Assembly: GCF_001307805.1 (NCBI RefSeq)
Contig: NZ_CP013862.1
Coordinates: 3,782,001-3,846,000 of the forward strand
Direction: 5' to 3'
DNA length: 64,000 nucleotides
Origin: Lentibacillus amyloliquefaciens
GTDB lineage: Bacteria > Bacillota > Bacilli > Bacillales > Amphibacillaceae
Part shown: positions 655-33,947 of the stretch, piece after piece
Layout: each line of letters opens with the position of its first letter
Position numbering within the stretch: the first letter of the stretch is position 1
Program-made: the position numbers and the translations under genes
The notes under the pieces: model-generated
The model's database searches: none
The model's input: only the letters and a program-made list of their open reading frames with translations
Told to the model about the DNA's origin: nothing

Positions 655-978
655 GTGATTGATTAAGGCTTACCTATGTTTGATGGTGTCACGAAGTTTC
701 CCGTTTTTGTCGCAATCACAAAACCTTGCTCGTTGTAGTCGAATCCAACTTTCATTTTTGCTCATTCTGGTGCTTCTTAAGTTCAAATACGTCAGCATCA
801 GAAATAGTAATAGACCGCAACTCGGACCATTGTTAAGTTCACCTATCACAATTTGCTCCTGTTCATCTTTTTGTAAGGACCGTCGCACATGGATAACTTT
901 GTCATTCAAATCAACTGAATCCCATTTCAATCCAAGTATTTCCCTTTGCCGCATACCTGTTTGGGCGAATGTTGAAAC
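655..978 (-). pseudogene. Tyrosine recombinase (phage-type integrase) fragment, frameshifted
   Basis: Read on the minus strand from 978, the frame gives F-A-Q-T-G-M-R-Q-R-E-I-L-G-L-K-W-D-S-V-D-L and then V-I-H-V-R-R-S-L. This is the box I region of tyrosine recombinases around the first catalytic Arg. Further on, a different frame gives Y-N-E-Q-G-F-V-I-A-T-K-T-G and T-P-S-N-I, typical of the same protein just before box II. The two pieces are therefore separated by frameshifts. The HxLRH box and the catalytic Tyr are absent. It is a relic of an integrative element; compare the tRNA-Arg 3' fragment at 8741. Confidence 0.7.
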
Positions 979-1021: not shown

Positions 1022-1050
1022 TTGACAAAGATTTCAAACAATATTAATAT
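1022..1050 (+). promoter_or_regulatory. SigA-type promoter for the GntR gene
   Basis: TTGACA (1022-1027), a 17-base spacer and TAATAT (1045-1050) make a near-consensus vegetative promoter. It lies about 55 bases before the regulator start. No TGTCCGGACA operator overlaps it, so autoregulation through that site is not evident here. Confidence 0.7.
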
Positions 1051-1106
1051 AAATGTTAGTTGCTAGGGTATGATATATAAAATTTGAAACTAGGATAGTT
1101 GATAAA

Positions 1107-1820
1107 ATGAGTGATTTTCTTAATAAAAATAGTAGTATTCCATTATATTATCAAGTTAAAGAGGTGATAAAAGAAAAGATAAAGTGTGGAGAATGGAAAA
1201 ATGATGAAAAGATACCAAATGAATTGGAATTGGTAAATCAATTTAGTGTCAGTAGATCAACCGTTCGTCAGGCTATTTTGGAGTTAGTGGCTGAAGGGTT
1301 ATTGATAAGAAGAAAAGGGCGTGGTACTTTTGTAAAAAAGCTCCAACATGAAGGTAACTTTATGACCTTTTCTTATCCTGATGAACTTGGTAAAAAGCAT
1401 ATTCCTGTTAGTACAGATGTTATAGAAGGACCACTAGAATATTTACATATTTTAAAGTTATATAACAGTAAAAAAATAAATGAAATAATTCGTTTAAGGT
1501 ATTTTAAAGAAGATCCGGCTGTTATCGAAAGGACTTATCTTCCCTTTTATCTTTTTCCAGATATATTAAACAAAGATATGACAAAACCCATATATGATAC
1601 TATTATAGATGATTACAAAATTAATATAGTTCATCATAAAGTTTATATAGAACCAATATTACTTGGTGAGTATGATGCTAATCTGTTGGGAGTTCATTCA
1701 GGTCAGCCTGCCTTAAAAACAACAAAAATATGCGAAACTTCAAACAATTTACCGATATTGTTAACTATAAGTGTCTTTAGAGAAGATAGAAGTAAATTAT
1801 TTTATCAATATGATGTATAG
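1107..1820 (+). CDS. GntR-family regulator, HutC/UTRA subfamily
   Basis: A 237-residue protein. Residues 10-75 form a GntR winged helix: I-P-L-Y-Y-Q-V-K, P-N-E-L-E-L, V-S-R-S-T-V-R-Q-A-I, and G-R-G-T-F-V. The rest has the layout of a UTRA effector domain, which in this family binds small molecules such as sugars, amino acids or their derivatives. It precedes the dehydrogenase/TRAP genes on the same strand and is separated from them by 340 bases holding two palindromic boxes. It is therefore the best candidate for their substrate-sensing regulator. The effector is unknown. The ribosome site before ATG 1107 is weak. Confidence 0.85.
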   Translation: MSDFLNKNSSIPLYYQVKEVIKEKIKCGEWKNDEKIPNELELVNQFSVSRSTVRQAILELVAEGLLIRRKGRGTFVKKLQHEGNFMTFSYPDELGKKHIPVSTDVIEGPLEYLHILKLYNSKKINEIIRLRYFKEDPAVIERTYLPFYLFPDILNKDMTKPIYDTIIDDYKINIVHHKVYIEPILLGEYDANLLGVHSGQPALKTTKICETSNNLPILLTISVFREDRSKLFYQYDV

Positions 1821-1839
1821 AAACAAAGTCATCCTATCC

Positions 1840-1851
1840 ATGTCCGGACAT
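1840..1851. promoter_or_regulatory. Candidate operator 1 (ATGTCCGGACAT)
   Basis: A perfect 12-bp palindrome between the GntR gene and its putative target operon. An identical copy lies 114 bp downstream. Perfect short dyads next to a GntR gene are commonly its binding sites, but binding here is inferred. Confidence 0.5.
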
Positions 1852-1953
1852 AATAACATATAAGTTGATTTTTAATAAAAGAGTATAGATTCGTTCACAT
1901 GAGATGAATTATGGGGTATAGAAACAAAACCATTTTGGGAGTTATTGTCTATT

Positions 1954-1965
1954 ATGTCCGGACAT
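1954..1965. promoter_or_regulatory. Candidate operator 2 (ATGTCCGGACAT)
   Basis: Second identical 12-bp palindrome. The centre-to-centre distance of 114 bp is close to eleven helical turns, which would suit looping between two bound dimers. This is an inference from spacing only. Confidence 0.5.
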
Positions 1966-2077
1966 TACAACATATAGAATTGAAAATAAAAGAGTAGAGG
2001 TTCCTTCACATGCAAGTGATCAAAGGTTATTACATTATGAATTAAGAAAGTTAAGGAATAATTGTAGTATCTTTTTT

Positions 2078-2141
2078 GGAATTTCACAGTTTAATGTAAG
2101 CGCATACTACATTGTGAAATTCCTATCAAGTTAAGTATAAA
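2078..2141 (+). promoter_or_regulatory. Inverted repeat with embedded cre-like site, and a candidate promoter
   Basis: GGAATTTCACA (2078-2088) is exactly complementary to TGTGAAATTCC (2113-2123), and AATGTA/TACATT pair further inside. The centre, 2094-2108, reads ATGTAAGCGCATACT, which fits the CcpA cre consensus WTGNAARCGNWWWCA at 14 of 15 positions. TTGTGA (2112-2117), 18 bases and TATAAA (2136-2141) could be the promoter of the operon. If so, transcription starts only about 10 bases before the ribosome site. Confidence 0.5.
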
Positions 2142-2158
2142 AAAACTAGAAAAAGGAG

Positions 2159-3301
2159 ATGTTTAAAATTAATATTACAAATTTAAATGATTCAAAAGTT
2201 TGTATTATAGGGGCAGGCAATGGTGGTTTAGCAGCAGCCGCAGATTTAACCTTACGGAGACATGAAGTTATCTTGGCTGAATTGCCTGAGTTCGAAGAGA
2301 ATATTAGCGAAATTAAAGAGAGAGGAGGAATACACCTCGAAACATTAGAAAGAACTGGATTAAAAGGTGGGTTTGCGAAACTTTATAAAGTAACAACAAA
2401 TATTTCTGAAGCAATTTCTGAAGCAAAAATAGTATTAATTATCACACCTTCTTTTGCTCATAAAAAAATAGCTGAAGAGTGCGCTGAATTTTTAAAAGAG
2501 GAACATACAATTGTATTAGCTCCAGGTAATTTAGGAGGAAGCATTGAGTTTTATAATAGTTTAATTGATAATGGTGGAAATATGAATGTTAATATTTCTG
2601 AAATGGAATGCATGATGTTTGCATGTCGAAAAAAGGATAATAGTACCATTTATATTAGGGGATATAAGCATAATCTTGGCTTTTCGACTTTTCCTTCGAT
2701 ATCGACGGACAGGGAATTTGAAAGAGTTAAAGAAATTTATCCTAATATAGTGAAAAGGCAAAATGTTATTGAAACCGGGTTTTCTAATATAAATCCTATT
2801 TTACACGTGCCTATACTTATATCTAATTTAAGTATTATAGATAATAAAAAGAATGTTTTAATGTATCATGAGGCCTTAACCAAGTCTATAGAAAAAATAA
2901 CTGAACATTTAGATAAAGAAAGAATGTCTTTAAATAATTTTGGTGAAGATATTCAATTAAAACCAATGAGTGATATCTATAAAAGTTGGTATTACCATCA
3001 AGGAGCAAGGGGATCCTCCTTTGTGGAATTAGCGGGGGAAAACCCAATTTACTATGAAAGTGAACTCCCTAATACTTTAAACCACAGGTATTTATTAGAA
3101 GATATACCTTATGGGTTAATTCCTATGATTTCTATGCTAGATAAATTTGAGATACAAAGTAAGAATATAAGGTCTATAGTAAATACTGCTAGTTTAATTT
3201 CCGAAATTGATTTTTATAAAAAGGCTAGAACTTTAAAAACATTAAAGCTGCATAAAAAAAGTAAAGAACAAATTATTAATTATATTAAATATCGTAATTA
3301 A
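2159..3301 (+). CDS. Octopine/opine dehydrogenase-family protein
   Basis: 380 residues. The N-terminal Rossmann fold has G18-A-G20-N-G-G23, directly after V-C-I-I. The C-terminal half fits the octopine/nopaline dehydrogenase domain: N-I-N-P-I-L-H-V-P-I-L-I-S-N with the catalytic His near residue 217, and later E-D-I-P-Y-G-L-I-P. Family enzymes reversibly reduce the imine formed between an amino acid and a 2-keto acid. Beside an uptake system and a regulator, the oxidative (degradative) direction is more likely. Start: AAAAAGGAG abuts ATG 2159 with no spacing, so translation may begin slightly downstream at a non-ATG codon; no better ATG exists before the Gly motif. Substrate unknown. Confidence 0.8.
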   Translation: MFKINITNLNDSKVCIIGAGNGGLAAAADLTLRRHEVILAELPEFEENISEIKERGGIHLETLERTGLKGGFAKLYKVTTNISEAISEAKIVLIITPSFAHKKIAEECAEFLKEEHTIVLAPGNLGGSIEFYNSLIDNGGNMNVNISEMECMMFACRKKDNSTIYIRGYKHNLGFSTFPSISTDREFERVKEIYPNIVKRQNVIETGFSNINPILHVPILISNLSIIDNKKNVLMYHEALTKSIEKITEHLDKERMSLNNFGEDIQLKPMSDIYKSWYYHQGARGSSFVELAGENPIYYESELPNTLNHRYLLEDIPYGLIPMISMLDKFEIQSKNIRSIVNTASLISEIDFYKKARTLKTLKLHKKSKEQIINYIKYRN

Positions 3302-3347
3302 TTTTTATAAAGAATTACAAATAATATTAATAAAGGGTGGATTAAAA

Positions 3348-4361
3348 ATGTTTAAAAGAAAGTTATATATTAGTGTTTTGATGCTATTTACTCTCTTATT
3401 TATTGCTGCTTGTGGTAACGAATCAGGCACGGATGGGTCAGGGGGTAATGATGACCAATTTTTAGATTTTATAACGGGTGATCCCGAGGGAACTTGGGCT
3501 GCAATAGGAACTGGTATATCTGATAGAGTTAACGAGTCTTTAGATGGTATTGAAGTGGTTTCTAAACCAGGATCTGGATCTGTTGGAAATCCTGAGGCCG
3601 TTTCAATTGAGAAAGGTGATATTGGTATGTCCTATAACCCTTTTCTTTTAAAAGCAGAAAATGGAGAGGCTCCATTTAGTGATAAAATGACGAATTTAAG
3701 AGCAGTAGCATCATTAACTCCAACTGTAGTTCACTTTATTCAAAATTCTGATATGAAAATTGACTCTTTAGAAGAACTTATTTCAACACAAACAGATATT
3801 ACTTTAGGTATTCCTCCTGAAGGACAGGGAAGTAATTACATTGGTAATATGATTTTTGAATCACAAGGTATAGAAAGTATTGAAGACACTCTAAACGATT
3901 GGGGTGGTGACATTTATTATGGAAACATGTCTAACTTAACTGATGCATGGAGTAATAGACAAATTGATAGTATAATTTCCACTTTAAATGTTCCAGGTTC
4001 CGCAATAGAAGAATCTATGGCTGCCTCTGAAGGAAAGTTAATGAATATCGGTGATGAATTAGCTAATGTATTAATTAACGAGCAAGGATTTGAGCCTTAT
4101 ACTATACCTTCAGGAACATATAATAATCAAGAAAAGGATGTCGAAACGGTAGGATTATCAATAATTGTTTTTGCGAGGGATGATGTTTCAGATGATGTTA
4201 TCTATGAATTAACTAAAACTATCTATGAAAATGAGGATTATTTAGCAAACGTCCATAGTTCATTTGAAAACTTCAATGCGGATAATATGGCAGATAACTT
4301 AACCCTAGAGGTTCACCCAGGTGCGGAGAAGTTTTATCAAGAAAAGGGATTAATGGACTAA
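3348..4361 (+). CDS. TAXI-family TRAP transporter solute-binding lipoprotein
   Basis: 337 residues. A lipoprotein signal has K-R-K, a hydrophobic stretch and lipobox I-A-A-C with Cys22, followed by a Gly/Ser/Asp-rich linker. The mature part fits the TAXI group of TRAP binding proteins (G-D-P-E-G-T-W-A-A-I-G near the start, then P-G-S-G-S-V-G-N-P and G-I-P-P-E-G-Q-G-S-N). In Gram-positives it would be anchored outside the membrane and feed the fused permease at 4994. TAXI ligands known so far are mostly carboxylates and amino acids, consistent with an opine-like substrate. Ribosome site AAAGGGTGG precedes ATG 3348. Confidence 0.88.
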   Translation: MFKRKLYISVLMLFTLLFIAACGNESGTDGSGGNDDQFLDFITGDPEGTWAAIGTGISDRVNESLDGIEVVSKPGSGSVGNPEAVSIEKGDIGMSYNPFLLKAENGEAPFSDKMTNLRAVASLTPTVVHFIQNSDMKIDSLEELISTQTDITLGIPPEGQGSNYIGNMIFESQGIESIEDTLNDWGGDIYYGNMSNLTDAWSNRQIDSIISTLNVPGSAIEESMAASEGKLMNIGDELANVLINEQGFEPYTIPSGTYNNQEKDVETVGLSIIVFARDDVSDDVIYELTKTIYENEDYLANVHSSFENFNADNMADNLTLEVHPGAEKFYQEKGLMD

Positions 4362-4388
4362 AAACCTATCCCTTTCCCTTCATTTTTT

Positions 4389-4858
4389 AAAGTATGCCTG
4401 ATAACGGCCAGCGAAATGTACCACTGAATAATAACCTTTTTACCAGTCATTACACAAAACACTGCACTTTTATGGAATGAAGCCTGAGCCACAGCGAAGC
4501 TGCTTGCCATTGACTGTAACGCCCGATTCTTTGCAGACGCTGGAAGGGGTAGGGGCCCGTCAGCGAATGCTTAGAATCGGATTGTCCGTGTTATCATGTT
4601 TGAACAGGTGTGCCTCTTAGGCATTATTTCTGCCACACCTGCGATAGTTCCACAAGTCGGACAAAAGTTAAGTCAATGGTGGCGGGCTACTGAATTCGCA
4701 CTGCTTCAGACAAAGCATAGTAATCCATTTCCTGTGTGGTAAATTGGGTTGGCATCACTTGGTAAATTGTTTGTCACACACTGGTACAAAAGATGGCGGA
4801 GGTGGTAAAAACCGCTGGCCGTAATCAATGCCCTATAAAAAGGCATACTTATTTTGTT
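4389..4858 (+). terminator. Hairpin terminator split by an IS insertion
   Basis: AAGTATGCC (4390-4398) lies left of the inserted element. CTATAAAAA and GGCATACTT plus ATTTTGTTT (4842-4858) lie right of it. Removing the element and one target copy restores a 9-bp perfect stem with a 9-base loop and a T-rich tail, 28 bases after the binding-protein stop. Such a partial terminator between binding protein and permease would lower permease expression relative to the binding protein. It is now interrupted by 434 bases. Confidence 0.6.
4399..4827. mobile_element. Defective insertion element (IS21-like ends) without a transposase gene
   Basis: The left end TGATAACGGCCAGCG and right end CGCTGGCCGTAATCA are inverted repeats, with about 21 of 26 bases matching over the longer ends. 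The element starts with TG and ends with CA and is flanked by a 5-bp direct repeat ATGCC (4394-4398 and 4828-4832). These are IS21-like traits. The 429 bp hold no open frame resembling IstA or IstB, so this is an internally deleted or MITE-like copy. Assignment to IS21 rests only on the ends. Confidence 0.7.
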
Positions 4859-4993
4859 TCACATATCCGAATGGAAGGATAACATAACCTTAGACTCACC
4901 TTTTTGTATTTGGTTGGCTAAATACCTTGCATCACCACAAAAAAGTGAGATGTCATAACTGTTTTAAATTTATATATATGAAAGGAGATAAAT

Positions 4994-6886
4994 TTGAGAA
5001 AATTAAAAGGTTTCCCTAGAATCATTGCCTTTGTATTAGGTGTATCTTTAACAATTATTACATTTTATACAGCTTTCACCGGTTTATTTCTTGCGAGCAT
5101 ACAAAGATCAATTCACCTTACCCTGATATTATCAATTATTTTTTTATGGTTCCCAGCATCTAAAAAAATATCACCTAAAGATAGACCATCAATAATTGAT
5201 TATATTTTATCATTTGCATCTTTATTTATATTATTTTGGACACTAATCAATACTAGTAGATTTTTGAACAGAATTGTATTTGTATCAGAAATGAGTACGA
5301 TTGATATGATTGTTGGAGTAGCATTAGTTGCGCTCAGTATTGAGGCGGGAAGAAGAACAATGGGGTTAGTTTTGGTTGTTCTTTCTCTAATATTTATTGC
5401 TTATGGAATATTTGGCCAACATTTTCCGCCTTTGTTATCGCATTCGGGGTTTCATTTGCGAGAATTTGTTGACCTTATGTATTTATCGCAAAGAGGATTA
5501 TTTAGCTCGTTAATGGGATTATCAGCAACTATTTTATTTATTTTTATTTCTTTTGGAACTTTTCTTCAGGCAACTAAAACAGACGAACACTACATGGATC
5601 TAAGTTTGTCAATAGCTGGACACAGGCCAGGTGGTCCTGCTAAGGTTGCTGTTTTGAGTAGTGCTGCAATGGGAAGTATTTCAGGGAGTACTATGTCGAA
5701 TGTTGTTACAACAGGCAACCTAACAATACCTTTGATGAAAAAAACTGGGTATAAGGCTCATGAGTCTGGAGCAATAGAAACAGTTTCTTCAGCTGCTGGT
5801 CAAATTATTCCACCTGTTATGGGAACAGGGGCGTTTCTTATAGCAGCAATAATAGGTGTTGAATATTTGGAAATTGTTAAAGTTTCTATTATTCCTGCCA
5901 TAATTTTTGTAATGTCAATTTGGTTTTTTGTGGATCTTAAAGCCAAAAGAAATGGTATTTTTGGGTTAAATAAAAATGAAACACCGGATTTTTTAGATAC
6001 CTTAAGAAAAAGCTGGCACTTGTTTTTACCCCTAATAATTTTAATAATAATGCTTATTTTAAAATTTACACCATTCATTGCAGGAAGTGTAGCAACTTTA
6101 TTAATATTTGTTTTGTCATTTGTTAGAGCAGACTCAAGAATGGGAGTAAAAAAATTCTTTTTAACATTAGAGAAATGTTCTATTAACATGGCAATGATTA
6201 CAGGGATAATATCATGCGCCACTATTATTGTTGGAGTTATAAATCAATCCGGAATAATGAATAGAACAACCTCTATAATTTTATCTTTGGCTAATGACAA
6301 TTTAGTTATGACGATTGTTATTATCTGTTTGATTTCCTATTTTTTAGGAATGGGACTACCTGTTGTTACGGCATATATATTAGTCGCAACACTAGGCGCT
6401 CCTGCGCTAATTGAATTAGGAATTCCGGCTATAGTAGCGCACTTGTCAATATTCTGGCTTTCTCAACTATCAACTATAACACCGCCAGTTTGTATGACAG
6501 CATTTGCAGCAGCGGCAATAGCTAAGGCACCTCCTATGAAGACAGGATTTTCATCCTTAAAAATGGGAATTAGTTTTTATATTATTCCTATTATATTCTT
6601 GTTTTCTACAATCTTAACTGACGGCTGGCTAACAACTATTACTATTGGTTTAGTATCAGTTGTTGCGATGTATTTATTTGCTGCTAGCCTAGAAGGATAT
6701 TTTTTTGGGAAAACAAATATCGTTATGAGAATATTAAGTTTCATAGCATTTTTGTTTATTATTACATCCACATTAAATACTGTAATTGATTTTCAAAATT
6801 CTATTATGATGTTTTTGTTTGGGTTAGTATTGGTTGCCGTTATGTGGATTTTCCAGAAAAGAAGGAAAGTGCAATTGGTAAATTAA
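4994..6886 (+). CDS. TRAP transporter permease, fused 4TM/12TM (DctQ-DctM fusion)
   Basis: 630 residues, almost entirely hydrophobic, with about 16-18 membrane segments. The size and layout match the fused TRAP permeases that work with TAXI binding proteins: a short N-terminal Q-like part, then the DctM-like part with G-S-I-S-G-S-T-M-S-N-V, P-P-V-M-G-T-G-A-F, G-M-G-L-P-V-V-T-A-Y and T-P-P-V-C. It drives ion-coupled import. The start is TTG 4994, chosen because AAAGGAG (4981-4987) is 6 bases upstream and no ATG fits. It is separated from its binding protein by the split terminator and IS. Confidence 0.9.
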   Translation: MRKLKGFPRIIAFVLGVSLTIITFYTAFTGLFLASIQRSIHLTLILSIIFLWFPASKKISPKDRPSIIDYILSFASLFILFWTLINTSRFLNRIVFVSEMSTIDMIVGVALVALSIEAGRRTMGLVLVVLSLIFIAYGIFGQHFPPLLSHSGFHLREFVDLMYLSQRGLFSSLMGLSATILFIFISFGTFLQATKTDEHYMDLSLSIAGHRPGGPAKVAVLSSAAMGSISGSTMSNVVTTGNLTIPLMKKTGYKAHESGAIETVSSAAGQIIPPVMGTGAFLIAAIIGVEYLEIVKVSIIPAIIFVMSIWFFVDLKAKRNGIFGLNKNETPDFLDTLRKSWHLFLPLIILIIMLILKFTPFIAGSVATLLIFVLSFVRADSRMGVKKFFLTLEKCSINMAMITGIISCATIIVGVINQSGIMNRTTSIILSLANDNLVMTIVIICLISYFLGMGLPVVTAYILVATLGAPALIELGIPAIVAHLSIFWLSQLSTITPPVCMTAFAAAAIAKAPPMKTGFSSLKMGISFYIIPIIFLFSTILTDGWLTTITIGLVSVVAMYLFAASLEGYFFGKTNIVMRILSFIAFLFIITSTLNTVIDFQNSIMMFLFGLVLVAVMWIFQKRRKVQLVN

Positions 6887-6933
6887 ATGGTAAATTCATG
6901 TAAGTAAAAACACACAGGAAAGGAACTGTTACT

Positions 6934-7899
6934 ATGTTAAATGTTATAAATTCAGTAGTTACTGCTGAAAAAATAGTAAAAAAAAATCTAGCAATAAAAC
7001 CGCAAGAAGAAGTTGTTATAGTTGCTGATTCAAAATCTGATTTAGAAATTGTTTATACCCTAGCTGGAGTTATAAAATCTGTTGGGGCTGAATATACAAT
7101 AGCGATTATGCCAGATAGAGATCACTCTAATGCAGCAATTTTAACAAATTTTATTAATAAAGGACTCGAATCAGCTGATGTTTTAATAGGATTAACAAGT
7201 GCCTCTGGGGCTCCTTGTTATTCTGAGGTAGCGCAACAACTATTTTATAGTGGGAAAGTTAGATCAATGTCTATGGTGTTTAGAAACCTAAATCATTTAA
7301 CTGAAGGAGGAGCTACAGCTGATTATGATAAAATTGCTGAAAAGGCAAGTAAACTTGCGAGTATTTGGAAAAAGGGGAAAGAAATTAGAGTAAAAAGTGA
7401 AAAAGGAACAGATATTAAAGCCCCTATAGTTAAAGAGAGAGTCCGTGTTGAAGATGGATTTGCTACTAATCCAGGAGATGAATGTGCATTTTCAGATGGT
7501 GAAGTTTTTATGTATCCAGTTGCTGGGGCTGATGGATTAGTTGTTCTTGACGGACCTATCTATCGTTTTGGCTTACCAATGGGTCCCGTGAAAATTGAAG
7601 TTAATAATGGTAAAGCTATATCTATAGAAGGAGGAGAAGAAGCTGGTAATCAATTAAAAGAGATTGTATTTTCGACTAAAAACGCTGATAATTTTGCTGA
7701 ATTTGCCATAGGATTAAATCCCCAATCATTTAAAAATGGAGATTTTGAAGAAGAGAAGAAAGCTCTTGGAAATGTTCATTTCGCATTGGGAAAAACTCCT
7801 GTTGTTTATAGCCCTATTCATATGGATCTAATTATGAGGGAAGGAACAGTTGAAATTGACGACCAAATTGTATTGGAAAATGGTAAATTGTTGGTTTAA
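6934..7899 (+). CDS. M29-type aminopeptidase / NicX-fold metalloenzyme
   Basis: 321 residues. The C-terminal half has the pattern of the M29 peptidase/2,5-dihydroxypyridine dioxygenase (NicX) superfamily: G-P-V-K-I-E-V-N-N-G-K, A-E-F-A-I-G-L-N-P, L-G-N-V-H-F-A-L-G and S-P-I-H-M-D. Likely metal ligands are E190, E256, H282, H296 and D298, the five-ligand set of M29 peptidases. NicX-type enzymes use only His, His and Asp. A soluble aminopeptidase would fit release of an amino acid from an imported conjugate, but a ring-opening or hydrolytic role on a small molecule is equally possible. It lies 48 bases after the permease with a good ribosome site, so probably in the same operon. Confidence 0.72.
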   Translation: MLNVINSVVTAEKIVKKNLAIKPQEEVVIVADSKSDLEIVYTLAGVIKSVGAEYTIAIMPDRDHSNAAILTNFINKGLESADVLIGLTSASGAPCYSEVAQQLFYSGKVRSMSMVFRNLNHLTEGGATADYDKIAEKASKLASIWKKGKEIRVKSEKGTDIKAPIVKERVRVEDGFATNPGDECAFSDGEVFMYPVAGADGLVVLDGPIYRFGLPMGPVKIEVNNGKAISIEGGEEAGNQLKEIVFSTKNADNFAEFAIGLNPQSFKNGDFEEEKKALGNVHFALGKTPVVYSPIHMDLIMREGTVEIDDQIVLENGKLLV

Positions 7900-7996: not shown

Positions 7997-8440
7997 TCAT
8001 CGCCCCAAGCCATGGATATATAAGGATTTGAATGTAAGGTGCGAGTCAAAGGCTAACATTTTGCACCTTATTGTAGGCTTCTCATAAATTGACTCACTAG
8101 CGTTGCATAAACAATGGCGTATCTGATCAACTAATTGATAAAAAATGGCTGCCAACAAATTGGAATCCACAGTACGGTGTTTTCGCGACAATTGGGAAAC
8201 GCTAATTGAACCCAGCCCCAATTCCTGTTGAACCTCGTCATCAAAAAGTGTATCACTCATCGCATGTAAGCTTTCCACCTCTTCCAGGTGGGACAATAAT
8301 AACAGTTTGATGTAGGAATAAGTCGTAAACTTTTTCGTGTAGCGATCTTGCCCGGTCTGCGTAATTTGTTCTGTAAGTTTTTCAATATTAATGGGTGCAA
8401 CCCATTTACCAAATGATGATAATAGTGTATGATTGTCCAT
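7997..8440 (-). pseudogene. IS4-family transposase, N-terminal remnant
   Basis: From ATG 8440 (AAAGGA 8 bases upstream) the minus frame encodes the N-terminal domain of an IS4-type transposase: S-F-G-K-W-V-A-P-I-N-I-E-K, Y-S-Y-I-K-L-L-L-L, L-H-A-M-S-D, and S-I-S-V-S-Q-L-S-R-K. The frame stops at 7997 after about 147 residues, near a weak match to the first catalytic Asp (A-F-D-S). The remaining 200-plus residues of the DDE domain are missing, so it cannot be active. Confidence 0.75.
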
Positions 8441-8577
8441 ATTCTGAGTTCCTTTATATTGGATTTGGACAACAACCACCAATTCCATTATAAAGGATTT
8501 TTTTATACCCGGAAACCTATACTTTGGATAATTAACAAGATTATCAATTTTCTTTTATTATTTATGCAACGCTAGTG
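8095..8577. mobile_element. Truncated IS flanked by a 17-bp perfect inverted repeat
   Basis: CACTAGCGTTGCATAAA at 8095-8111 is repeated in inverse at 8561-8577. The second copy lies 121 bases before the transposase start, where a terminal repeat would be expected. The first falls inside the broken transposase frame. The simplest reading is an internal deletion that joined one end to the middle of the gene. No clear target duplication is visible. Confidence 0.55.
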
Positions 8578-8740
8578 GTTTAATTTGGCTTTTTGCCATC
8601 TTATTTTTGGTCACAAAATTGGTAACGTATAAGTCGAAATAACCTGAAACAAACTAATGCAAATTTGCTAATACACACCTTCGAAACCTTGCAATAACAA
8701 CAAATCAAAATCTTGTATAATCTATTAAAATGCTCTGACA

Positions 8741-8789
8741 CGGTTTCCGGTACCAGGCGTCGGGGGTTCAAGTCCTCCCGGGCGCATCA
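8741..8789 (+). pseudogene. 3' fragment of a tRNA-Arg(CCG) gene, probable attachment-site remnant
   Basis: The sequence starts inside an anticodon arm (GGT-TTCCGGT-ACC, anticodon CCG) and continues through a variable loop, a T arm (GGGGG, TTCAAGT, CCTCC) and an acceptor strand CGGGCGC plus A. The D arm and 5' acceptor strand are absent upstream. It ends TCA instead of CCA. Partial tRNA 3' ends of this length are typical att sites of tyrosine-recombinase elements. Confidence 0.7.
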
Positions 8790-8984: not shown

Positions 8985-10097
8985 ATGAAGCATATCATTA
9001 TCGGAGCAGGAATCCTTGGCGCATCAACTGCTTACCATTTGGCTAAAAAGAATGAAAAAGTCACCGTCATCGATCGGCATGAACCCGGCCAGGCAACGCG
9101 AAATGCAGCTGGGATTGTCTGTCCGTGGCTGACCAATCGGAGCAATAAGGCGTGGTACGAACTTGTGATCAGGGGTGCGAAATTTTATCCTGCACTTATT
9201 GAAGAGCTTACGCGTGAAGGCGAAAAGGAAACTGGATACGAACAAGTTGGAGCGGTGAATATCTTTGATACTGAGGAAAAATTGGGCCGGAAGATGGAAG
9301 TCGCTTATAAACGGAAAGAAGATGCACCGGAAATGGGTGAGATAACGAGATTGTCGCCTGAACAGACCAAACGACTTTTTCCACCCGTTTCAGAAATCTA
9401 TCGGGCCATTCACATTTCAGGAGCAGCGCGTGTGAATGGAGCAGCACTGAACGATTCCCTTCTCCGTGCAGCACAGAAAAATGGAGTTGATGTGATTCAT
9501 GGAGATGCCTCATTATTATTTAAAAATGAGGCAATACAAGGTGTTGAGGTAAATAGTGAATCTCACTATGCTGACCAAGTGATTGTCACGAATGGAGCTT
9601 GGACGAATGCTTTATTCGAGGCCGTTGGGATGAAGTCAAAGGTTACGTTTGAAAAGGCGCAGATTATCCACTTACACACGCCGGGGATGGATACGAGTCG
9701 TTGGCCTGTCATGCTACCGCCATTCAACCATTATATGCTTACGTTCGGCGGTGGAAAGATTGTTATCGGGGCAACTAGAGAAAATACCAGTTCTTTCGAT
9801 TCCCGTGTCACGATTGGCCCTGTCCACCAGTTGATGGACAAAGCATTAAGTGTTGCGCCTGGTTTGGCTGACGCTTCCTATCTGGGTACGAAGGTAGGTT
9901 TTCGCCCCTTTACACTAGGATCCTTGCCAGTTATTGGCCGGGTTCCGGGTTTTTCAAATGTTTTAATTGCGAATGGATTAGGAGCATCAGGTTTGACGAG
10001 CGGTCCGTATGTGGGCGCTCAGCTTGCAAAACTTGCGATTGGTGAAAAGCCGGAATTCAGTATGGAATCATTCGATCCTAAAGATTTGTTCGTATGA
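8985..10097 (+). CDS. FAD-dependent amino-acid oxidase/dehydrogenase (DAO family)
   Basis: 370 residues. The N-terminal FAD dinucleotide motif is I-I-G-A-G-I-L-G-A-S-T-A-Y-H-L-A, followed by V-I-D-R and R-N-A-A-G-I-V. The C-terminal R-P-F-T-L-G-S-L-P-V-I-G and G-L-G-A-S-G-L-T-S-G-P are typical of the DadA/glycine oxidase group. These enzymes oxidise amines or D-amino acids to imines, passing electrons to oxygen or quinones. It stands alone with its own ribosome site (AAAGGTG). GC content rises here relative to the block to the left, so this is probably the first core gene after the island. Exact substrate unknown. Confidence 0.8.
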   Translation: MKHIIIGAGILGASTAYHLAKKNEKVTVIDRHEPGQATRNAAGIVCPWLTNRSNKAWYELVIRGAKFYPALIEELTREGEKETGYEQVGAVNIFDTEEKLGRKMEVAYKRKEDAPEMGEITRLSPEQTKRLFPPVSEIYRAIHISGAARVNGAALNDSLLRAAQKNGVDVIHGDASLLFKNEAIQGVEVNSESHYADQVIVTNGAWTNALFEAVGMKSKVTFEKAQIIHLHTPGMDTSRWPVMLPPFNHYMLTFGGGKIVIGATRENTSSFDSRVTIGPVHQLMDKALSVAPGLADASYLGTKVGFRPFTLGSLPVIGRVPGFSNVLIANGLGASGLTSGPYVGAQLAKLAIGEKPEFSMESFDPKDLFV

Positions 10098-33581: not shown

Positions 33582-33947
33582 GGGGACGTTACGGATTCGA
33601 CAGGGATAGATTGAGCTCAGACTGCGCGTCGAGGTTACGGCTCGTAAAACGTTACTCGCTAAATATAAACGGCGAAAAACAAGAAACTCCTGCTTTAGCA
33701 GCTGCCTAAGCACTGACTGAAGCGATCCTTCCTGCTATCGCCCGTGTGGCAGATTGAAGGGTCTCAAATGAAGCGGGCTATTCCGTCGTCCACCGTCTGA
33801 GGATGACGGCAGAACACAATCAGACTAGCTGCCGGTAAGCCCGTTGGCAGGCTGAACGGTACGCGAATGATAATATGTCAACTATGCGTGTAGATGTCTG
33901 AGTGGCGATATCTCTGGACGTGGGTTCGATTCCCACCGTCTCCACCA
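33582..33947 (+). ncRNA. ssrA: Transfer-messenger RNA (ssrA)
   Basis: Starts GGGGACGTTACGG and ends in a T arm and acceptor with CCGTCTCCACCA, so CCA is encoded. The 5' and 3' ends pair as the tRNA-like domain. The tag frame runs from the resume codon GGC (33671) to TAA (33707-33709) and encodes G-E-K-Q-E-T-P-A-L-A-A-A. With the alanine from tmRNA this gives a proteolysis tag ending A-L-A-A-A. At about 366 bases it has the usual length. The prophage is integrated at its 3' end. Confidence 0.97.
33920..33947. other. Probable prophage attachment site core (attL) in ssrA
   Basis: The T arm and acceptor end of tmRNA, TGGGTTCGATTCCCACCGTC plus TCCACCA, stay intact, and phage-type sequence begins at once. 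The integrase stop is 63 bases away. Tyrosine integrases of this sort use the last 15-30 bases of ssrA and rebuild the gene on insertion. Exact core limits need the other end. Confidence 0.6.

Follow-up and report, generated by a model that had tools for sequence, protein, structure and literature searches.

Here, we analyze a stretch of 64,000 nucleotides from Lentibacillus amyloliquefaciens (NCBI RefSeq assembly GCF_001307805.1, contig NZ_CP013862.1, positions 3,782,001 to 3,846,000; hereafter, the window), in which five genes between positions 1107 and 7899 form a candidate cluster for the uptake and breakdown of an opine-like compound. All five open reading frames (ORFs) are on the plus strand and uninterrupted. 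The first gene (1107-1820; 237 amino acids) encodes a GntR/UTRA regulator of the HutC type (Pfam UTRA, 77 bits; GntR, 70.1 bits) and is followed by genes for an Octopine_DH (PF02317) dehydrogenase (2159-3301; 380 amino acids; 109.7 bits, cut-off 30), a TAXI-type TRAP solute-binding lipoprotein (3348-4361; 337 amino acids; Pfam NMT1_3, 178.3 bits; NCBIfam TIGR02122 [TRAP_TAXI], 174.6, cut-off 84.35), a fused TRAP permease with a TTG start (4994-6886; 630 amino acids; Pfam DctM, 251.7 bits; NCBIfam TIGR02123 [TRAP_fused], 579.7, cut-off 320.65), and an M29-like metallohydrolase (6934-7899; 321 amino acids; Pfam Peptidase_M29, 41 bits, cut-off 27), for which no NCBIfam model matched. The ORFs and the Pfam and NCBIfam matches agree with the five-gene layout described in an earlier note on this DNA. 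The extent given there holds for the genes, but operator-like palindromes and an acquired segment that starts upstream of the window take the unit beyond the genes alone.

The dehydrogenase and the TAXI-TRAP transporter

The dehydrogenase gene is the sole PF02317 match in its own 3.86-Mb genome, and PF02317 had no match in 14 control genomes. The GAGNGG motif of the protein corresponds to the N-terminal Rossmann GxGxxG, and by sequence the protein is a member of PF02317. A profile of seven relatives matched N-(1-D-carboxylethyl)-L-norvaline dehydrogenase (1BG6; E 1.6e-104) and octopine dehydrogenase (3C7A; E 2.4e-22), and the 2-dehydropantoate 2-reductases in the same search did no better than 3.1e-4 and aligned only with the N-terminal part. 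A place in the ketopantoate-reductase branch was rejected, as ApbA scored 19.7 bits, which is below the cut-off, again over the N-terminal part only. H216, R310, and D315 align with H202, R292, and D297 of 1BG6; the catalytic His, Arg, and Asp are, thus, intact. A His-Asp dyad is named as catalytic in opine dehydrogenases in the portion of PMC10787698 available to us. As the earlier note had proposed, the enzyme falls in the opine branch and carries the catalytic His, and not in a ketopantoate-reductase-like branch that lacks it. The presence of E41 where 1BG6 has D34 suggests NAD+ as the cofactor. The same portion of PMC10787698 reports that positions 111 and 198 of the Arthrobacter enzyme ArODH (1BG6) switch the preference between L-Phe and L-Asp, and that the L-Asp-preferring metagenomic enzymes (mODHs) have R111/G198. 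The window enzyme has Asn at both positions and, therefore, is neither of the two types tested there. Among its relatives, the R111/G198 pair is present at L085, L075, and L111. Separately, Asn replaces the catalytic His in three Octopine_DH relatives (L024, L026, and L027) that are encoded beside polar-amino-acid ABC transporters.

The binding protein and the permease both exceed their NCBIfam cut-offs and by sequence are a TAXI-TRAP pair. The binding protein belongs to the same family as VcGluP (8S4J), the glutamate-binding protein of a TAXI-TRAP transporter, for which the part of PMC11574862 consulted lists the binding-site residues, including the key residues Y45 and Q93. Only two of the 13 glutamate-site positions of VcGluP, S75 and G156, are kept in the window protein, and Trp and Tyr are present at the positions of Y45 and Q93, which rules out a glutamate-type TAXI protein. 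The TAXI proteins of two Pyramidobacter genomes, described below, likewise have Trp and Tyr, and nine of the 13 positions agree among these two and the window protein; judging from these residues, the three proteins may share a ligand. The two transporter genes lie on one strand, as stated previously, but are not tightly joined: the 632 bp between them (4362-4993) hold a repeat element (4380-4970; no strand) without a long ORF (internal ORFs of at most 50 amino acids). The ends of the repeat are partly complementary (4399-4424/4802-4827), and it has five other matches in its own genome, the best at 90% over query positions 131-448; two matches (genome positions 3772058-3772349) fall inside the same acquired segment. 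The permease gene has an apparent ribosome-binding site of its own.

A homologue of the dehydrogenase (E ≤1e-10) is encoded in 19 of 397 genomes of the same order and in 10 of 159 genomes of the same family, the own genome included in both counts, and in none of 11 other genomes of the genus. Among 19 loci fetched from the other 18 order genomes, one (L039) has TAXI and TRAP genes beside the homologue. A wider scan (one genome per species, 84,980 species, contigs of at least 3 kb) returned at least 536 confirmed relatives, and we retained the top 80. Neighbors within 4 kb on the same strand were labeled with a limited set of exemplar proteins in 104 rows including the window; proteins shorter than 300 amino acids or below 60 bits were dropped beforehand, and two plasmid rows were not counted. 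Plasmid searches returned only relatives of less than 60% identity. TAXI-TRAP genes were beside the dehydrogenase gene in 14 of the 104 rows, window included (13 of the 103 others), with two of these rows representing one locus (L094) and one a truncated locus (L058). TAXI genes occur at approximately one per Mb (71 in 17 genomes, ~70 Mb, in a set partly chosen for the pairing). Other importers were a dipeptide ABC transporter in 12 rows, a polar amino acid ABC transporter in eight, a DctP-type TRAP transporter in six, SSS and YfcC types in four each, TTT in two, and one other type in one.

On a tree of these relatives, a quick one without bootstrap in which several long branches were flagged, as was the sequence composition of the window row, the TAXI-TRAP label requires at least eight changes, a count that stands without a shuffled control. 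The window enzyme lies in a clade of nine rows (SH-aLRT 95) together with sequences from Synergistota, Selenomonadales, Syntrophaceae, and Anaerolineales, and this clade also holds members beside TTT (L044 and L046) and dipeptide-type ABC transporters (L043 and L047). The clusters nearest in gene order are those of the two Pyramidobacter genomes, in which the dehydrogenase gene is followed by TAXI and TRAP genes, the latter cut by the contig end in L041; identity to the window proteins is 39-42% for dehydrogenase and TAXI and 52% for the L042 permease. Other genes were also seen near opine dehydrogenase genes: an ornithine cyclodeaminase/SbnB-family gene within 4 kb at five loci (L059, L066, L072, L085, and L098); a gene for an ~550-amino acid protein, resembling a B12-binding protein by eye, that adjoins the dehydrogenase gene in L119, L053, L107, and other loci of Clostridia, Chloroflexota, and Actinomycetota; and, upstream in L120, 2-oxoacid oxidoreductase-like and butyrate kinase-like genes (by eye).

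In the M29-like protein, E190, E256, H282, H296, and D298, at positions that we take to be the M29 metal ligands, are invariant in 15 aligned sequences, and by sequence the protein belongs to the M29 family. Its profile matched NicX (7CN3; 3.4e-24) and the M29 aminopeptidases PepS, AmpS, and AmpT (2.3e-18 to 1.2e-14); a few ubiquitin chains also appeared in the result, without any stretch passing alone. If the protein were a NicX-type ring-cleaving dioxygenase, the imported compound would be a heteroaromatic acid. 7CN3 is the best solved-structure match of the profile and the only one of the single-sequence search at E up to 1, and the positions of H318 and D320 in NicX, which together with H265 we assume to be the Fe ligands, are kept. 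However, Glu256 is at the position of H265, so that the NicX ligand set is incomplete, Glu190 and His282 are as in PepS-type M29 proteins, and the profile matches the aminopeptidases as well. We rejected the dioxygenase candidate and regard such an activity as very improbable. The earlier description of an M29/NicX-type enzyme, accordingly, is retained for its M29 ligand positions and dropped for the NicX ligand set.

M29-like homologues (E ≤1e-20) are encoded in 101 of 398 genomes of a phylum sample, own genome included. We fetched 19 loci, i.e., 16 of the best matches of the phylum search and three from cluster-bearing genomes; at six of these, TAXI-TRAP or TTT genes lie on the same strand at a distance of up to 6 kb, and 13 have neither. 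M29-like matches are present in eight of 22 cluster-carrying genomes, own included, in none of the others at the cluster, and neither Pyramidobacter genome has a match at E 1e-5. These data bear on the possibility that dehydrogenase, TAXI, and TRAP genes are one unit and that the M29-like gene either serves a different pathway or is carried along by the mobile region. The M29-like gene stands beside none of the other 103 labeled dehydrogenase genes; elsewhere, it is accompanied by TAXI-TRAP or TTT genes in fetched stretches that showed no opine dehydrogenase; and mobile remnants adjoin the cluster. On the other hand, only 47 bp separate the permease and M29-like genes on the same strand, and the nearest M29-like relative (42% identical; L161), which is among the six, also directly follows a TAXI-TRAP permease gene. 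We consider such a separate role of the M29-like gene possible but doubtful. M29-like proteins adjoin TTT or TAXI-TRAP importers at five loci of several Bacillota (L162, L164, L166, L168, and L171), twice in tandem in L164.

The regulator and a decayed dehydrogenase gene in Oceanobacillus oncorhynchi

GntR/UTRA regulators are typical of catabolic operons, and the window protein is presumed to be an effector-responsive repressor of the downstream operon. The operator-like palindrome ATGTCCGGACAT occurs twice in the window (no strand), and both copies (1840-1851 and 1954-1965, the second 114 bp 3' of the first) are between the regulator and dehydrogenase genes. The pattern ATGTNCNNACAT gave four strand matches, i.e., both palindromes, versus 0.71 expected, and one of 100 shuffles reached four. 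The regulator is 90% identical to that of Oceanobacillus oncorhynchi (L064:4102-4815; first 80 residues 89%, remainder 90%), and ATGTnCnnACAT palindromes are common to the loci of the two regulators; L064 likewise has two sites in the equivalent position (4845 and 4931). A looser form, [AT]TGTnCnnACA[AT], which was fitted after the sites had been seen, has 33 matches in 1.39 Mb of loci L022-L120; 11 of these are within 10.3 kb beside eight related GntR genes, and seven of the eight loci have sites, the exception being L087. A promoter and terminator scan found sites no more commonly than in shuffles (35 versus 34.4 and 3 versus 2.8).

The leader of the dehydrogenase gene contains a cre-like (CcpA-type) site (2094-2108, plus strand), which is the single match in the window to WTGNAANCGNWNNCW, presumably the cre consensus. 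The same element is present at L064:5150, and a cre-like site is also found in L022 (1225) but not in the examined stretches of L051, L055, L057, L061, L071, and L087. The site lies between the arms of an imperfect inverted repeat (2068-2093/2108-2133), and folding of the leader (2040-2165) beats shuffles (z -2.65; one of 200 equally good). In the region 2155-2170, the Shine-Dalgarno sequence runs directly into the ATG of the dehydrogenase ORF (GGAGATG; GGAGGTG in the O. oncorhynchi remnant described below); an ATT 9 nucleotides downstream of that ATG, found in both sequences, might be the true start.

Related regulators are encoded in clusters of Bacillaceae that have a gene for an argininosuccinate/EDDS-lyase-like protein instead of the M29-like gene. 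The order is GntR-lyase-TAXI-TRAP-opine dehydrogenase in L051, L055, L057, L061, and L064 and lyase-GntR-TAXI-TRAP-opine dehydrogenase in L071; in all of these except L064, the regulators are 45-52% identical to that of the window. Two further loci have a related regulator with other partners, i.e., lyase-GntR-opine dehydrogenase without TAXI-TRAP in L087 and GntR-dipeptide ABC-opine dehydrogenase in L022. The two lyases scanned, those of L064 and L071, exceed the argininosuccinate lyase model, and the L064 lyase matches Thermus argininosuccinate lyase (3.3e-81), 6RX8 (1.9e-75), and 6G3D (2.4e-75), the last of which is listed as the same sequence as 6G3H, which is an EDDS lyase according to the section of PMC12363623 that we used. 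The L064 lyase keeps the SSIMPQKKNP loop and has Ile and His at the positions of D290 and Y320 of EDDS lyase. In the own genome, nothing closer to the cluster-type lyase than a 33% identical match was found.

The window and L064 agree far better in the regulator than in the genes behind it: identity is 90% for the regulator versus 32% for the dehydrogenase, 28% for TAXI, and 36% for the permease. At the DNA level, L064 4017-4823 corresponds to window 1022-1828 at 90%, and L064 5092-5477 corresponds to window 2035-2475 at 75%. The latter piece, located between regulator and lyase, comprises the leader and the 5' part of a dehydrogenase gene of the window type with three in-frame stops and alignment gaps; the family search found the same fragment with three stops in genome G869, the coordinates of which coincide with those of the L064 record. 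This decayed gene implies that a dehydrogenase of the window type once followed this regulator in Oceanobacillus, in which a different operon is now present. From the 90% identical UTRA part, we infer that the two operons serve the same inducer. We tentatively propose that one regulator with its operators successively controlled two non-orthologous operons that respond to one inducer, one of the window type (opine dehydrogenase-TAXI-TRAP-hydrolase) and one of the O. oncorhynchi type (C-N lyase-TAXI-TRAP-opine dehydrogenase), and that the new operon could have replaced the old one, leaving the decayed fragment behind. If so, the two operon types together would represent a widespread and as yet undescribed way of catabolizing opines or aminopolycarboxylic acids that depends on TRAP transporters, and the O. 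oncorhynchi locus would narrow the inducer to a compound usable by opine dehydrogenase and C-N lyase pathways alike.

Proposed function and genomic setting

Altogether, we suggest that the cluster is probably an inducible operon through which the cell takes up and degrades an N-substituted, opine-like amino acid. According to this model, the TAXI-type TRAP transporter would import a small N-substituted amino acid, i.e., an opine-like secondary-amine carboxylate; the dehydrogenase with NAD+ would oxidize the C-N bond of the substrate to give an amino acid and a 2-oxo acid; and the M29-like, metal-dependent hydrolase would most likely cleave an amide or a peptide linkage of the substrate or of a product. 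The regulator would repress at the two palindromes until the inducer arrives, perhaps with catabolite repression through the cre-like site. In favor of this model are the conserved 1BG6 residues, the frequency of TAXI-TRAP genes beside the dehydrogenase gene compared with the overall density of TAXI genes, the importers of other kinds in the clade of the window enzyme, the TAXI pocket, the operator-like sites near related regulators, and the M29-like relatives close to TAXI-TRAP or TTT genes. The core of the uptake-and-cleavage idea in the earlier note is partly right. Its suggestion of a metallophore was not sustained, as neither a nicotianamine-synthase-like gene nor an exporter was found among the cluster genes and next neighbors scanned; the rest of the genome was not searched. 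The same two absences argue against the dehydrogenase running in the synthetic direction, for redox balance or to make a metal-binding opine, next to a transporter for an unrelated nutrient. The reaction is reversible, and the available parts of PMC4575208 and PMC10787698 describe NAD(P)H opine dehydrogenases mostly as synthases; however, relatives of the enzyme adjoin importers of several families and, as noted, the regulator is of a kind usual in catabolic operons. We consider a synthetic role unlikely.

Several observations weigh against an uptake-and-breakdown operon. TAXI-TRAP and Octopine_DH genes are paired in other Bacillaceae and in Synergistota, but the exact five-gene set, for which the earlier note proposed a search elsewhere, was in no other genome examined, and the isolation of the M29-like gene from other dehydrogenase genes points in the same direction. 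In 55 of the 104 rows, none of the importer kinds sought was found, with many contigs short and the exemplars limited. In the TAXI proteins of the six lyase clusters, the Y45/Q93 positions are occupied by Tyr and Thr and, thus, their ligand may not be exactly that of the window protein. The repeat between the TAXI and permease genes may weaken co-transcription, the start of the dehydrogenase is uncertain because its ATG touches the Shine-Dalgarno sequence, and the single cre match is not above the 1.73 expected by chance.

The cluster appears to have been acquired horizontally, within a segment of ~24 kb that has tRNA-Arg(ccg) at one end and a partial copy of this gene at the other. The intact tRNA gene is at genome positions 3766765-3766839, and its 3' part recurs ~24 kb away as a 44-bp, 93% copy (window 8742-8785, plus strand), which is the likely right edge. 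In 1-kb windows, G+C content is 28-39% between 1001 and 8000 versus 42-45% between 12001 and 16000. None of the five proteins had a match above 90 bits at this locus in stretches from 11 congeners, two of which are only ~9 kb. Beyond the tRNA copy lies a DAO-family gene (8985-10097); one of the 11 congeners (G292) has a 76% relative of it in the same position, ~1.3 kb from tRNA-Arg(ccg) versus ~24 kb here. The segment also carries genes for two sodium:solute symporters, an M24 peptidase, a diacid-type regulator, and AMP-binding, CoA-transferase, short-chain dehydrogenase, and thiolase proteins, and a glycerate kinase gene in it is split into two overlapping ORFs (L196 10444-11666; second part scanned). 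In 10 of the 11 congener stretches (L218-L228), those holding both genes, the tRNA-Arg(ccg)-rpoN spacing ranges from ~0.3 to ~14.5 kb, marking an integration hot spot. An ssrA attachment site was rejected: a tmRNA-like Rfam match at 8735-8789 does not reach the gathering score, and the tRNA-Arg 3' part accounts for it better. The intact tmRNA lies at 33582-33947. A tyrosine-integrase remnant suspected by eye at 670-954 (minus strand) had no Pfam match at E 1e-5.

Immediately downstream of the cluster is an IS4-type (DUF4372) transposase remnant (7997-8488, minus strand; Pfam DUF4372, 40.8 bits; NCBIfam transpos_IS4_1, 35.9, below the cut-off of 115). This remnant, the 632-bp gap with its repeat, the doubtful dehydrogenase start, and the remnant of a similar dehydrogenase gene in O. 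oncorhynchi would fit a cluster that is decaying and has lost expression as a unit. Given that the five frames are open, the catalytic residues are intact, and the permease gene has its own apparent ribosome-binding site, we give decay little credence and favor a functional catabolic operon.

Comparison with known systems

To our knowledge, secondary-amine carboxylates, including opines, fungal aminopolycarboxylic acids, and EDDS-like chelators, are forms of organic nitrogen that have been little traced. The earlier note saw in TRAP import coupled to an opine dehydrogenase a route different from known ones. The TAXI-TRAP coupling is a variant in this sense, but NAD-dependent opine catabolism has a precedent: according to the portion of PMC4575208 at hand, Arthrobacter sp. 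1C grew on N-(1-D-carboxyethyl)-L-phenylalanine using an NAD-dependent opine dehydrogenase. This enzyme (CENDH/ArODH; 1BG6) and the window enzyme have the PF02317 fold family and the His-Arg-Asp residues in common; they differ at residue 111, which is Ala in ArODH and Asn in the window (both enzymes have Asn at 198), and a further difference is the coupling of the window gene to TAXI-TRAP and to an M29-like hydrolase. The L-Asp-preferring mODHs, as far as they are covered in the consulted part of PMC10787698, are of the same family with R111/G198 in place of Asn/Asn. In the octopine and nopaline catabolism (occ/noc) of Ti plasmids, the same part of PMC4575208 describes an ABC permease together with OoxAB/NoxAB. 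Opine uptake followed by oxidative cleavage is what we propose for the window; however, a TRAP transporter and a PF02317 enzyme take the place of the ABC permease and flavoprotein oxidase, neither of which is among the cluster genes.

The binding protein shares the TAXI family with VcGluP but not its glutamate site, as described above. The lyase clusters of Bacillaceae and Ammoniphilus (L051, L055, L057, L061, L064, and L071) resemble the window in their related GntR regulator, operator type, and combination of TAXI-TRAP with an opine dehydrogenase; they differ in having a lyase gene for the M29-like gene and in TAXI, TRAP, and dehydrogenase proteins that are only 25-39% identical to those of the window. 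In the Creative Commons-licensed literature of PubMed Central, searched partly by title, we found no opine or octopine dehydrogenase paired with a TRAP transporter, and papers on opine catabolism that mention TRAP give, in the parts available, opine ABC and TRAP genes as separate items. The parts of the cluster are each of a known kind, and the pairing of opine dehydrogenase with TAXI-TRAP is little described. Compared with these systems, what is new is the TAXI-TRAP coupling, its repeated appearance on the tree, and the possible replacement of an operon behind one regulator; the recurrent pairing together with the conserved regulator and operator provides a testable ligand class for both families.

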